Below, one piece after another: positions 8,151-11,369 of a stretch of 37,997 nt of DNA (positions are counted from its first letter, which is position 1; each line of letters opens with the position of its first letter). The translations under genes were made by a program, and so were the position numbers. A model generated the notes under the pieces. That model saw only the letters and a program-made list of their open reading frames with translations. It had not been told where the DNA came from and searched no databases. Origin of the DNA: Dehalococcoidia bacterium (GTDB taxonomy: Bacteria; Chloroflexota; Dehalococcoidia; Dehalococcoidales; Fen-1064); the NCBI GenBank assembly GCA_011171075.1, contig DUFD01000049.1, forward strand, positions 1-37,997. The letters run 5' to 3'.

Positions 8151-8489
8151 CTAACCAGTAGTACTTGTTGCAGTACTGGCATCACCCACGTCAGGCCGTG
8201 ATTTCCGCCGCCTCCGCCTCCATCCCAGAGCTTCCAGGAAGTCACCGATGGCAATATCGTCATGGGCATCGCTACGCATTGTCAGGTCTGGATTTATCCT
8301 GTACCTCGTGCCTCGACCTACCTTCCGTTTATGGATGTATTCGGCTTCATAAAGGTCGGCGATTATCTTACGTATTGCCCTCTCGGTAATACCGATATCC
8401 ATAGAGATTTCTCGTGCCGTTATGCTCGGATGCTTTGCCAGATAGCTGAGAACAAGGGCATGATTCGTCATGAACGTCCATTCCGACAC
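8151..8489 (-). CDS. Small winged-helix transcriptional regulator
   Basis: A 112-residue protein. Residues about 8-70 read as a winged helix: HALVLSYLAKHPSITAREIS (helices 1-2), ISMDIGITERAIRKIIADLYEAEYI (recognition helix region), then a basic wing KRKVGRGTRYRINP. The C-terminal 40 residues are acidic then arginine-rich (WRRRRRKSRP) and low in complexity. The start is GTG at 8489, supported by a strong ribosome binding site on the minus strand (GGGGGAGGT, about 8 bases upstream); the next in-frame Met is six codons in. It is divergent from the zinc-finger operon, with about 300 bases between them, so it is the obvious candidate to regulate that operon and itself. The effector is unknown. Confidence 0.85.
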   Translation of the reverse strand: MSEWTFMTNHALVLSYLAKHPSITAREISMDIGITERAIRKIIADLYEAEYIHKRKVGRGTRYRINPDLTMRSDAHDDIAIGDFLEALGWRRRRRKSRPDVGDASTATSTTG

Positions 8490-8509
8490 AATCGAATACC
8501 TCCCCCTAA

Positions 8510-8541
8510 AAGTACTCTTAAAATACTACCAAACGTACTAG
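8510..8541. promoter_or_regulatory. Candidate operator: three helically phased TACT repeats
   Basis: TACT occurs at 8513-8516, 8524-8527 and 8536-8539, spaced 11 and 12 bases, that is on one face of the helix. AGTACT and CGTACTAG are locally palindromic. The cluster sits between the ribosome binding site of the divergent winged-helix gene and the -35 box at 8550, a position suited to autoregulation and control of the zinc-finger operon. This is inference from layout only. Confidence 0.35.
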
Positions 8542-8549
8542 AATTCCTC

Positions 8550-8578
8550 TTGACAGGAACAATATACCATGATATGTT
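8550..8578 (+). promoter_or_regulatory. Sigma-70-like promoter of zinc-finger operon
   Basis: TTGACA at 8550-8555, 17-base spacer, TATGTT at 8573-8578. The next plus-strand gene starts at 8786, giving a leader of about 200 bases, which is long and AT-rich and in which I see no further gene. Confidence 0.55.
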
Positions 8579-8785
8579 ATTCATGTATATACTATCAGGA
8601 AGTATTGGACATGACTACCATTTCGTGTATTAATTCTATGTTTCTTATACCATATATTGGCCGTGAATTGCAAGCTGTTGTGCCTGATAGCCCATAAATA
8701 GGCACGGCAGGACAGCGATTTAGTAATAACTGGGGTGAAAGAACCACACAAATACCTCGCATTAATACGCCGGGAGGTACAGTAA

Positions 8786-9022
8786 ATGTTCTGGAGCAAA
8801 AAGGAGAAAACCGCCTCTCCCACCTGGAAATGTAAAGCAGCCGGATGTGATTTTGTTTGCGATGACTATCTTACGTTGCAGAAACACACGTATAAAAAGC
8901 ACCCTGGATTTATAATGCACTGCGAAGTGGAAGGGTGTAACTTTACCTGTGATGACTACAGGACGCTGGAGAAACACATGTCCTGGAAACACCCGGCAGG
9001 CAAATCTACAGTAGTATCTTAA
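8786..9022 (+). CDS. Small protein with two tandem C2H2 zinc fingers
   Basis: A 78-residue protein made almost entirely of two matching fingers. Finger 1 is CKAAGC, twelve residues, then HTYKKH; finger 2 is CEVEGC, twelve residues, then HMSWKH. Both fit C-x4-C-x12-H-x4-H, and both have the CDDY.TL.KH core followed by HPG or HPA. This is the classical eukaryotic-style spacing, unlike the bacterial Ros/MucR finger (C-x2-C-x9-H-x3-H). A fourth Cys in each finger (FVC, FTC) lies inside the spacer. The start ATG at 8786 follows GGGAGGTACAGTAA, a strong ribosome binding site. It heads a three-gene run. DNA, RNA or protein binding are all possible; two fingers alone usually bind DNA weakly. Confidence 0.88.
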   Translation: MFWSKKEKTASPTWKCKAAGCDFVCDDYLTLQKHTYKKHPGFIMHCEVEGCNFTCDDYRTLEKHMSWKHPAGKSTVVS

Positions 9023-9075
9023 TAAGTTATTGAGAATTTTATTATCGCGGGTAATTGCTTGTTGAGGAGGGCGGA

Positions 9076-9456
9076 ATGGTTACACTTGATTCAGCGGTTG
9101 AGATAGGACTGAACGGATTCCTCAACAGGTATGGTGACACCCGTGCCAAACAGGAACTCCTGTTATTCTGGGGACTGCATCCCGATGCCCGGTTTAGCAG
9201 GCTTGCTGTCCTGTCTGCAATGGAGTGTTCAAGGCTCGACGTGGAAAAAGCACTGAAAAGTATGGCCAATGATAACCTCATAGATATGCGTTCGGATAGC
9301 GGGTTGATTACCTATTCGTTAACCACAAATGAGAATATCCGGCAGATGGTGGCTTTACTCAGTACACTTGATTGGGGTCAGAGGCACATGTTGTTAACTA
9401 ATACTCATCAGGTGACTGATACATGCAATCTGGTATCAGCGCAGGAGGGTCTATGA
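9076..9456 (+). CDS. Winged-helix-like small protein of the zinc-finger operon
   Basis: A 126-residue protein that I do not recognise by name. Residues about 20-85 look like a winged helix: KQELLLFWGLHPDARFSRLA (helix 1 and turn), LSAMECSRLDVEKALKSMAND (helices 2-3), then NLIDMRSDSGLITYSLT as a two-strand wing. The pattern resembles ArsR/MarR-like regulators that read 'LL.FW..HP.ARFS..A'. I start it at ATG 9076, preceded by GAGGAGGGCGGA, rather than at the upstream in-frame TTG at 9055. It follows the zinc-finger gene by 53 bases and overlaps the next gene by ATGA (9453-9456), so the downstream gene is translationally coupled. Likely a DNA-binding protein; target unknown. Confidence 0.82.
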   Translation: MVTLDSAVEIGLNGFLNRYGDTRAKQELLLFWGLHPDARFSRLAVLSAMECSRLDVEKALKSMANDNLIDMRSDSGLITYSLTTNENIRQMVALLSTLDWGQRHMLLTNTHQVTDTCNLVSAQEGL

Positions 9457-9773
9457 TTCACTTTCACAATGGACGAAATGGTCATTCTAAAAAATTACCC
9501 AGGCCAATACACGACTACATGAGGCAGAGATTTGGAGTTCTGCCGGAATATCTGGATACCCTGCGGTGCTTCGGATTTGAAGGTATGGTCAATGACAAGA
9601 AAGTCATACGTTACCGAATCTACAGTCCAACAAAAGCCCAGCAGCAAAAGATAACCATAGGCAGCCTGTCTGACCTTGATAAAAACCCCGTCATGCTGCT
9701 TTATGAAGGATATATTGATAAAGAAGGAAAGGCGTATGTAGCCGACCGACGCAAGTCTCTTCGAATTAAATAG
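9453..9773 (+). CDS. Unknown basic protein of the zinc-finger operon
   Basis: A 106-residue protein of unknown function. It starts MIHFHNGRNGHSKK, then has a conserved-looking stretch PIHDYMRQRFGVLPEYLDTL, an alternating beta-rich middle (KKVIRYRIYSPTKAQQQ) and a basic C-terminus (ADRRKSLRIK). There is no signal peptide, transmembrane segment or cysteine cluster. The start is fixed by AGGAGGG at 9443-9449 and by the ATGA overlap with the preceding stop; a longer in-frame start at 9423 would bury the gene in its neighbour without its own ribosome binding site. The tight coupling suggests its product works in fixed ratio with the winged-helix-like protein. I cannot assign a family. Confidence 0.78.
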   Translation: MIHFHNGRNGHSKKLPRPIHDYMRQRFGVLPEYLDTLRCFGFEGMVNDKKVIRYRIYSPTKAQQQKITIGSLSDLDKNPVMLLYEGYIDKEGKAYVADRRKSLRIK

Positions 9774-9926: not shown

Positions 9927-11369
9927 ATGACCACCGAAAGCCCACGACAGAAAATACTAATAAGAAAAACATTAAAGAACAGCGTATTCGATGGTGCCTG
10001 CCATTCTGCCATGCTCGGATTGACCCAGAGCTACGTGGTGCCTTTTGCCCTGGCACTCAAAGCTACCACCGCTCAAGTAGGGTTGCTATCGAGCATACCC
10101 AGCCTGACTATGGCTCTCTCTCAGCTGGCAGTTCCGCGCTTAATTAAAAGAGCCGGCAGCCGAAAGCGTCTCATATTGCCGGTGGTTCTGATGCATGCCC
10201 TAATGTGGATACCCGTCCTGCTTGTCCCCTACCTGTTTCCAGGAGACAAGGTGTGGTGGTTGATTGGGCTTATGACACTCAGTGCTGTCTTCGGCTCACT
10301 GGCACTGCCGGCCTGGGGTAGCATGATGGCCGACCTAGTCCCTGAAGATACCAGAGGTCGGTACTTCAGCCGAAGAAGTAGAATCTGCGACTTAACGATG
10401 TTGGTCGTATCTTTCGTGGCCGGTGGTATCTTGCAGTGGACTACCGGCAGCCCGTTTCTTGGCTTTTCCATCATATTTGCCGGTGCCGTACTATCCCGCC
10501 TGACCTCTTGGTACTTCCTCTCGAGAATGCACGAGCCGTCATTAAAGGAGCCAACGAATAATCATGACAGTCTGCTGAGTACAATCAGGAAGCTGCGGTC
10601 TTCAAATCTGGGCAGGTTTATAACCTACGTGTCATTAATAAACTTTGCTACCAGTTTGGCCGGTCCCTTCTTTGCCGTCTATATGCTCCGCGATTTAAAG
10701 TTCGACTACCTCACCTACGTCGCTATCACAGCAACTGCCACCATTGCTTCTGTTACCTTCCTGACACGGTGGGGTAAACGAGCAGACCGAGCCGGCAACC
10801 TGAAGGTTATGAGAATTACCTCATGTGTGATACCGATGCTCCCTTTGCTGTGGCTGGTGAGCAAAGAGATCTACTATCTCATTCCCGTCCAGATACTGGC
10901 GGGATTTGCCTGGTCCGGCTTTACCCTTACCAGCAGCAACTTTCTGTATGATGCCTCTCCGCAGGGGAACAGGACACAGAGTATAGCCATCTTCAATGCC
11001 GTCAATGGCATGGCTATATGTCTGGGCGCCCTGATGGGTGGGTTTCTGGCACCGCGTCTCCCTCAGCTCCTCGGTAACAGCCTACTCTGCCTGTTCCTGA
11101 TATCCGGCGTCCTCCGGGGGTTTGTCGTAATATTACTGCTGCGTAAAATTTCCGAAGTACGCCGCGTTCCAAAGGTTGGTTCTCTCGAGCTACTTTTCGG
11201 TAAGCCTGTCTTACTCTGGGTCAGCCTGAAAAATAGTCTGGAGGCAGTGTTACCTCCTTTCCCGCAACCGGAGAGTATACTGACACCTTCTCTTCAACCA
11301 GTAACCATACCCTCGAGGTATCAGTTTACTAAAGCGAGTCGTAGTCCCCCAATTTTGGACGACAGTTGA
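9927..11369 (+). CDS. Major facilitator superfamily (MFS) transporter
   Basis: A 480-residue integral membrane protein with about twelve hydrophobic segments in two halves separated by a basic/charged loop (SRMHEPSLKEPTNNHDSLLS). Family features include PEDTRGRYFSRRSR after the first helices, similar to the MFS loop 2-3 region, and a matching region in the second half (TRWGKRADRAGNLK). Substrate unknown. The C-terminal ~65 residues after the last helix are hydrophilic and proline-rich, longer than usual. Start ATG 9927 follows TTAAGGAAATTCT. A terminator-like hairpin lies immediately upstream. It is flanked by the small regulator operon and a tRNA, so context does not suggest a substrate. Confidence 0.88.
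   Translation: MTTESPRQKILIRKTLKNSVFDGACHSAMLGLTQSYVVPFALALKATTAQVGLLSSIPSLTMALSQLAVPRLIKRAGSRKRLILPVVLMHALMWIPVLLVPYLFPGDKVWWLIGLMTLSAVFGSLALPAWGSMMADLVPEDTRGRYFSRRSRICDLTMLVVSFVAGGILQWTTGSPFLGFSIIFAGAVLSRLTSWYFLSRMHEPSLKEPTNNHDSLLSTIRKLRSSNLGRFITYVSLINFATSLAGPFFAVYMLRDLKFDYLTYVAITATATIASVTFLTRWGKRADRAGNLKVMRITSCVIPMLPLLWLVSKEIYYLIPVQILAGFAWSGFTLTSSNFLYDASPQGNRTQSIAIFNAVNGMAICLGALMGGFLAPRLPQLLGNSLLCLFLISGVLRGFVVILLLRKISEVRRVPKVGSLELLFGKPVLLWVSLKNSLEAVLPPFPQPESILTPSLQPVTIPSRYQFTKASRSPPILDDS

Follow-up and report, generated by a model that had tools for sequence, protein, structure and literature searches.

A bacterial family of small one- and two-finger C2H2 proteins in Dehalococcoidales and its position beside a conserved operon

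The finger gene and its surroundings

The window, by which we mean the whole 37,997-nt stretch analyzed here, derives from a bacterial genome of 2.1 Mb and carries a gene for a 78-residue protein (MFWSKKEKTASPTWKCKAAGCDFVCDDYLTLQKHTYKKHPGFIMHCEVEGCNFTCDDYRTLEKHMSWKHPAGKSTVVS) containing two C2H2 zinc-finger motifs (Table 1). Among all reading frames of at least 40 codons in the window, these fingers are the only two matches to C-x2-4-C-x12-H-x3-5-H, and when the protein's own residues were shuffled in 200,000 trials, two exact motifs were obtained once and two loose motifs 82 times. The N-terminus, MFWKKK or MGLFKKK, is common to the family, with an FxKK motif throughout; in the window protein it forms a basic tail (MFWxKK) with a Lys/Arg run. 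A Shine-Dalgarno-like purine run (GGAGG-like) lies upstream of the start in 10 of 10 chromosomal homologues. Pairwise comparison of the four two-finger genes yielded dN/dS ratios of 0.06-0.24 where these were computable, with dS near or beyond saturation. The finger gene is real and under purifying selection. The shortness of the ORF and the sub-threshold scores of the Pfam C2H2 models might suggest a chance motif or a non-coding ORF, but this reading, to which we give virtually no credence, is already refuted by the pattern of conservation: purifying selection, conserved ligands, and a Shine-Dalgarno site and syntenic position that are maintained in independent genomes.

Table 1. Features of the finger locus (positions are those of the window)
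Feature	Position	Strand	Remarks
Divergent winged-helix protein, 112 aa (HTH_24/MarR-like), candidate local regulator	8151..8489	-	
Sigma-70-type promoter TTGACA-17-TATGTT	8550..8578	+	208 nt upstream of finger ATG
Conserved block TTATACCATATATTGG...AATTGCAAGCTG, candidate operator or opposing promoter	8644..8677		Alignments of window, G013 and G119
Shine-Dalgarno site GGGAGG of finger gene	8772..8777	+	8 nt before ATG
Two-finger C2H2 protein, 78 aa	8786..9022	+	Translation; homologues in other genomes
Finger 1, C-x4-C-x12-H-x4-H, CKAAGCDFVCDDYLTLQKHTYKKH	8831..8902	+	Without the W of the ancestral H-x-x-W-K-H-P end
Finger 2, C-x4-C-x12-H-x4-H, CEVEGCNFTCDDYRTLEKHMSWKH	8921..8992	+	W-K-H-P end of family kept
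133-aa ORF after finger gene, overlaps next ORF	9055..9456	+	No Pfam match
Conserved ~107-aa protein ("DUF108")	9453..9773	+	No Pfam/NCBIfam match
MFS transporter of same operon type	9927..11369	+	72% identical in G119, 66% in finger-less G001

The intergenic region between the winged-helix gene and the finger gene spans 8490-8785. By eye, a promoter resembling TTGACA-17-TATAAT could be recognized in each of the 13 intergenic regions compared, whether or not a finger gene was present, and the block at 8644-8677 (TTATACCATATAT...AATTGCAAGCTG) is present in the finger-less loci of G001 and G012:C6 as well. Promoter and block are 75-88% identical among the window, G013 and G119, at a distance at which synonymous sites are saturated. 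An Rfam search of the leader found no element. Inverted-repeat arms occur in some loci (for example TTCAGGAA...TTCCTGAA in G124 and a similar pair in G128), and an inverted-repeat search of the intergenic regions found no shared operator in the window.

The winged-helix family is present in 70 of the 156 genomes of the order, and its gene adjoins nine of the ten chromosomal finger genes, divergently in eight and on the same strand in G012; no winged-helix gene lies on the 12-kb contig of G152. In many genomes of the order, the winged-helix gene faces an operon that encodes the 133-aa ORF (in some), the 108-aa protein, the MFS transporter, a lysine-2,3-aminomutase-type radical SAM protein, two D-Ala-D-Ala-ligase-like ATP-grasp proteins, a GNAT protein, MarC and a histone-deacetylase-fold protein. 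The finger gene stands first on the operon side in the window, G119, G121, G124, G127 and G129. The winged-helix gene and the first part of the operon also occur without it (G001, G003, G012:C6, G141, G144 and G147), so the finger gene is an optional first gene. Counterparts of the 133-aa ORF are found in such finger-less operons (57% in G001, 48% in G003). In the window, the operon is reduced to the finger gene, the 133-aa ORF, the 108-aa protein and the MFS transporter, with aminomutase genes on contigs C33 and C26, and G119, from another family, has the same finger-DUF-MFS block. The DUF108 gene adjoins the finger gene in G119, G124, G127 and G129 but not in G121, G128 or the phage contig described below. 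In G128 and G152, the finger gene is not at the operon head, and in G012:C11 no operon gene was found beside the two-finger gene.

Several further observations concern these neighbors. G012 has two winged-helix copies, one (C11) with the two-finger gene and the other (C6) with the operon start and no finger gene. The ~108-aa protein has homologues in 31 of the 156 genomes, linked to the winged-helix gene and the operon, and carries the signature YMRRRF...LRCFE.EG.V...YEGYID..GKAY.ADRR. The aminomutase/ATP-grasp/GNAT/MarC/deacetylase cluster lies at 5494-14996 of L125 (G001) and is conserved in L019, L020, L021, L024, L128, L129, L131 and L135; it probably makes a compound derived from a beta-amino acid, perhaps a solute related to N-acetyl-beta-lysine.

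Fingers, predicted fold and family

Both halves of the window protein match C-x4-C-x12-H-x4-H exactly, as the original prediction had claimed, with the codons of the first Cys at 8831 and 8921 and the ligand residues at C16/C21/H34/H39 in finger 1 and C46/C51/H64/H69 in finger 2. The proposed internal duplication of one finger is borne out as well, given that 15 of 26 residues are identical between the two fingers. The CDDY.TL.KH core ascribed to both halves is more restricted: it holds for the window protein and its nearest relative but not for the rest of the family. Loss of the Cys/His pairs in homologues, which would have spoken against the finger assignment, was looked for; instead, both Cys and both His are kept in 15 of 15 family fingers, all of them C-x4-C-x12-H-x4-H and thus within the classical spacing C-x2-4-C-x12-H-x3-5-H. 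The Cys of "FTC", the first of the core, is replaced by Gly in G124 and by Thr in G129, and is therefore a dispensable residue rather than a ligand.

Besides the ligands, the most conserved stretch is H-x-x-W-K-H-P, which is common to finger 2 and the single fingers (with Ala for Lys in G127), while the Trp is absent from finger 1 in all four two-finger proteins. Retention of the W-K-H-P end places finger 2 closest to the one-finger members. Mean identities are 65% among first fingers, 65% among second fingers, 53% between second and single fingers, and 45% between first and single fingers. A finger-only tree grouped the first fingers together with weak support (83/89) and had no starred branches, its 26 columns being too few to prove a single duplication. 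From these comparisons, the two-finger form looks like the product of one tandem duplication of a one-finger protein, with finger 1 as the diverged copy: finger 1 lost the Trp that finger 2 kept, and the occurrence of four two-fingered beside seven one-fingered members likewise suggests one such event.

Lys or Arg occupies helix position +6 in 15 of 15 fingers, and positions -1, +2 and +3 are variable or unusual, with acidic residues or Ser/His at -1 and hydrophobic residues at +2. The inter-finger linker, PGFIMH, has six residues and is not of the TGEKP type. Among the features of tandem C2H2 transcription factors (the residues at -1, 2, 3 and 6 and a TGEKP-type linker), only that at +6 is typical.

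AlphaFold2, supplied with a ten-sequence alignment, predicted strand-strand-helix (beta-beta-alpha) twice in the window protein, with disordered ends and a mean pLDDT of ~82-90 per ten-residue block across residues 11-70, and the model of a one-finger relative contains the unit once. The fold expected of two fingers is thus present, as far as a model can indicate. Based on motif and predicted fold, the protein most likely binds two zinc ions. Matches to existing models and structures fell short of significance. Many C2H2-type Pfam models match the window protein, each below its cut-off (zf-C2H2, PF00096, scores 16.0 bits, below its gathering threshold of 25.2), and NCBIfam gave no match. In Foldseek searches of the PDB, the top matches were eukaryotic C2H2 proteins, many in DNA complexes (ZIM-1, BCL11A, KLF4, CTCF), none at E <= 0.001; those against a viral library were C2H2 proteins of giant viruses and Microbacterium phages, none of them significant.

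The family was found in 10 of 156 Dehalococcoidales genomes, patchily distributed over three families and eight genera. Two fingers are present in four members (those of G000, the genome of the window, G013, G012 and G119) and one in the other seven (G121, G124, G127, G128, G129, G152 and a phage contig, IMGVR_UViG_3300020171_000202, the sole viral copy in 2.9 million contigs). A profile scan of 84,980 species returned Chloroflexota loci only, and five of the order's matches were refound in a named collection as Chloroflexi, Dehalococcoidia and Dehalococcoidales MAGs. Draws of ~400 genomes each from the class and the phylum contained no member outside Dehalococcoidales, and named phage and plasmid records contained no significant relative. 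Profiles were needed for detection; single-sequence scans of genome contigs and viral contigs gave no match. Four weak profile matches were not counted: those in G147, G050 and G146 are out-of-frame overlaps of longer genes (G050, itself of the order, had also come up in the class draw), and that in G024 is another C-x4-C-x12-H-x4-H protein, which lacks the family N-terminus. Besides the finger gene, the phage contig (L043:1344-12282) has genes for QueC and QueD of the 7-deazaguanine pathway, for Sak4-like and Cas4-like proteins, and for two homing-endonuclease-like proteins in which a CxxC motif lies at the N-terminus.

Relation to known zinc fingers and origin

Zinc fingers in bacteria are commonly identified with Ros/MucR, which shares with the present family a C2H2 finger in a bacterial protein and is tied to transcription control. 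However, the spacer between Cys and His is nine residues long in Ros, whose domain is also larger, beta-beta-beta-alpha-alpha (PMC9779718), whereas every finger of the present family has a 12-residue spacer, and the predicted fold is beta-beta-alpha; the difference in spacing from Ros/MucR stated in the original prediction holds. Furthermore, none of the ten members searched matched the ROS_MUCR model of Pfam up to E = 0.1. Spacer length and the lack of a match to this model together exclude Ros/MucR.

Judged by likeness, the nearest working analogue is AFV1p06, a one-finger protein of 59 aa from an archaeal virus that binds zinc and DNA (PMC3541406). Both are very small prokaryotic proteins built around a classical beta-beta-alpha finger with flanking tails, and both occur in viruses. 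AFV1p06 differs in being archaeal, in having its second His replaced by Glu and in carrying an extra beta-strand extension (PMC3541406), whereas the present proteins are bacterial, retain all four ligands and include a two-finger form, and the AlphaFold2 model of the window protein has no extra beta-strand. Neither phage tblastn nor PHROGs revealed relatives in archaeal viruses, short fingers being weak queries. According to a 2013 analysis, only 0.003% of bacterial genes carry classical C2H2 motifs, and bacteria lack the AFV1p06-type finger (PMC3541406).

The order contains other C2H2 fingers with a 12-residue spacer (L045, L046, L048, L050, L055, L056, L058, L060 and L062), which differ from the family in having C-x2-C instead of C-x4-C and in lying, in many cases, inside larger exported, redox or phage-like proteins; the family profile did not recover them. 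The proposal of a seldom-described family of prokaryotic fingers other than Ros/MucR is supported, as homologues were found only in Dehalococcoidales and one phage contig, but needs qualifying in that fingers of classical spacing exist elsewhere in the same order. Literature searches on C2H2 fingers in Chloroflexi or Dehalococcoidia yielded nothing relevant by title and abstract, and none of the Pfam and NCBIfam models searched is specific to the family. The family adds a new bacterial form to the classical C2H2 fingers.

Fingers of the zf-C2H2 type are commoner than expected in Dehalococcoidales. In L055:1339-2046 (G109), L056:1336-2043 (G031) and L050:1255-2073 (G028), a classical finger lies in a molybdenum-hydroxylase-type small subunit, between a Tat-type signal and the [2Fe-2S] domains, and is therefore probably the zinc finger of an exported redox enzyme. 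A finger is fused to aldehyde ferredoxin oxidoreductase in L062 (G108) and to a 4Fe-4S protein in L060 (G104), and two tandem fingers lie behind a membrane anchor in L046 (G030). A single C-x2-C-x12-H-x4-H finger lies close to one end of further proteins, small or phage-like, in L045, L058, L048 and L051.

Eukaryotic C2H2 proteins (zf-C2H2; BCL11A, CTCF, KLF4, ZAP1) share the spacing and the beta-beta-alpha fold with the present family and provide the top, non-significant Foldseek matches, but show no significant sequence relation to it, and the present fingers have the six-residue non-TGEKP linker and Cys, Thr or Gly where most fingers have Phe. Horizontal acquisition had been raised as a possible origin. 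In spacing and in their C-x-F/Y-x-C/T/S style, the fingers do look like those of eukaryotic proteins, BCL11A and ZNF462 among them, but a recent gain from a eukaryote is highly unlikely: the best PDB sequence match is weak (E = 0.014), the family radiates with one-finger relatives across three families and eight genera of one order, and its genes have bacterial Shine-Dalgarno sites and a family-wide FxKK N-terminal motif. That the relatives, mostly one-fingered, make up a small bacterial family heading a conserved gene cluster likewise argues against recent borrowing. An ancient origin shared with eukaryotic fingers, or an ancient transfer from eukaryotes, may lie behind the resemblance. Movement within Dehalococcoidales and via phages is likely, given the one-finger phage member and the window-type block in G119.

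Possible roles of the finger protein

The explanation that we tentatively prefer, though we put its chance of being right at a little below even, is that the finger protein is a small zinc-binding, accessory nucleic-acid-binding regulator of the operon it heads, acting in concert with the winged-helix protein. Under this hypothesis, a protein of two classical beta-beta-alpha C2H2 fingers and a basic N-terminal tail would bind zinc, would be expressed from the first position of the operon, from a promoter region common to it and the divergent winged-helix regulator, and would bind nucleic acid, regulating the local operon either jointly with the winged-helix protein or in opposition to it; a second finger would enlarge the surface available for contact. 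The invariance of the ligands, the predicted fold (with the non-significant Foldseek matches to eukaryotic C2H2 proteins), the basic tail, Lys or Arg at +6, the gene position next to the winged-helix gene across a conserved, promoter-bearing intergenic region, and the precedent of AFV1p06 all point to such a regulator. The residues at -1, +2 and +3 argue against Zif268-like sequence-specific reading of DNA. Also weighing against a regulator, the H-x-x-W-K-H-P stretch could be a protein-binding patch, the linker is not TGEKP-like, other C2H2 fingers of the order occur in exported or redox proteins whose target is not nucleic acid, the arrangements in G128, G152 and G012 break the operon-head pattern, and the phage copy has neither a winged-helix nor an operon partner in its 14-kb contig.

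The atypical contact positions, the non-TGEKP linker and the same-spacing fingers in redox proteins make a protein-protein role the leading rival, although we are doubtful of it. The protein would then be a zinc-stabilized adaptor, with the winged-helix protein, the 108-aa protein or an operon enzyme as its partner. Consistent with this, the W-K-H-P patch is invariant in one-finger members and finger 2, apart from the one Ala for Lys, while the DNA-contact positions drift; classical fingers of the order sit in Tat-signal [2Fe-2S] subunits, a 4Fe-4S protein and an aldehyde ferredoxin oxidoreductase; and specific DNA binding is seldom achieved by one finger (PMC3541406). However, the basic N-terminal tail and the Lys or Arg at +6 of every helix suit nucleic acid, and the putative partners are not universal neighbors, as the 108-aa gene is not adjacent in G121, G128 or the phage. 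A further alternative, quite improbable in our estimation, is an RNA-binding or phage-derived effector, in which a mobile one-finger phage gene was domesticated at the operon head and its product targets RNA, the transcription machinery or the host nucleoid. The phage finger gene lies between the genes for QueC and the Cas4-like exonuclease, near those for QueD and the Sak4-like annealing protein, and an optional gene in an otherwise conserved operon, present in 10 of 156 genomes, would fit such a history. Yet the viral copy is a single one among 2.9 million contigs, the replication protein of the phage contig found no match in the order when used as a query and so provides no prophage link, and in most genomes the finger gene has a conserved position next to the winged-helix gene, as would not be expected if it moved freely.

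A bolder form of the regulator hypothesis, which we regard as unlikely, is that a bacterial lineage independently made a tandem classical C2H2 factor by duplicating one finger and that this factor, with its local winged-helix partner, controls one operon. If true, a bacterium would be using fingers by a logic of eukaryotic style, alongside a one-finger counterpart carried by a phage. The family itself is a maintained bacterial one with eukaryotic spacing, in which the transition from one to two fingers is visible in living relatives, and it is accompanied by a defined genomic partner and a promoter. In a small system of this kind, it becomes testable both whether bacteria control genes by means of classical fingers and how a tandem finger begins.
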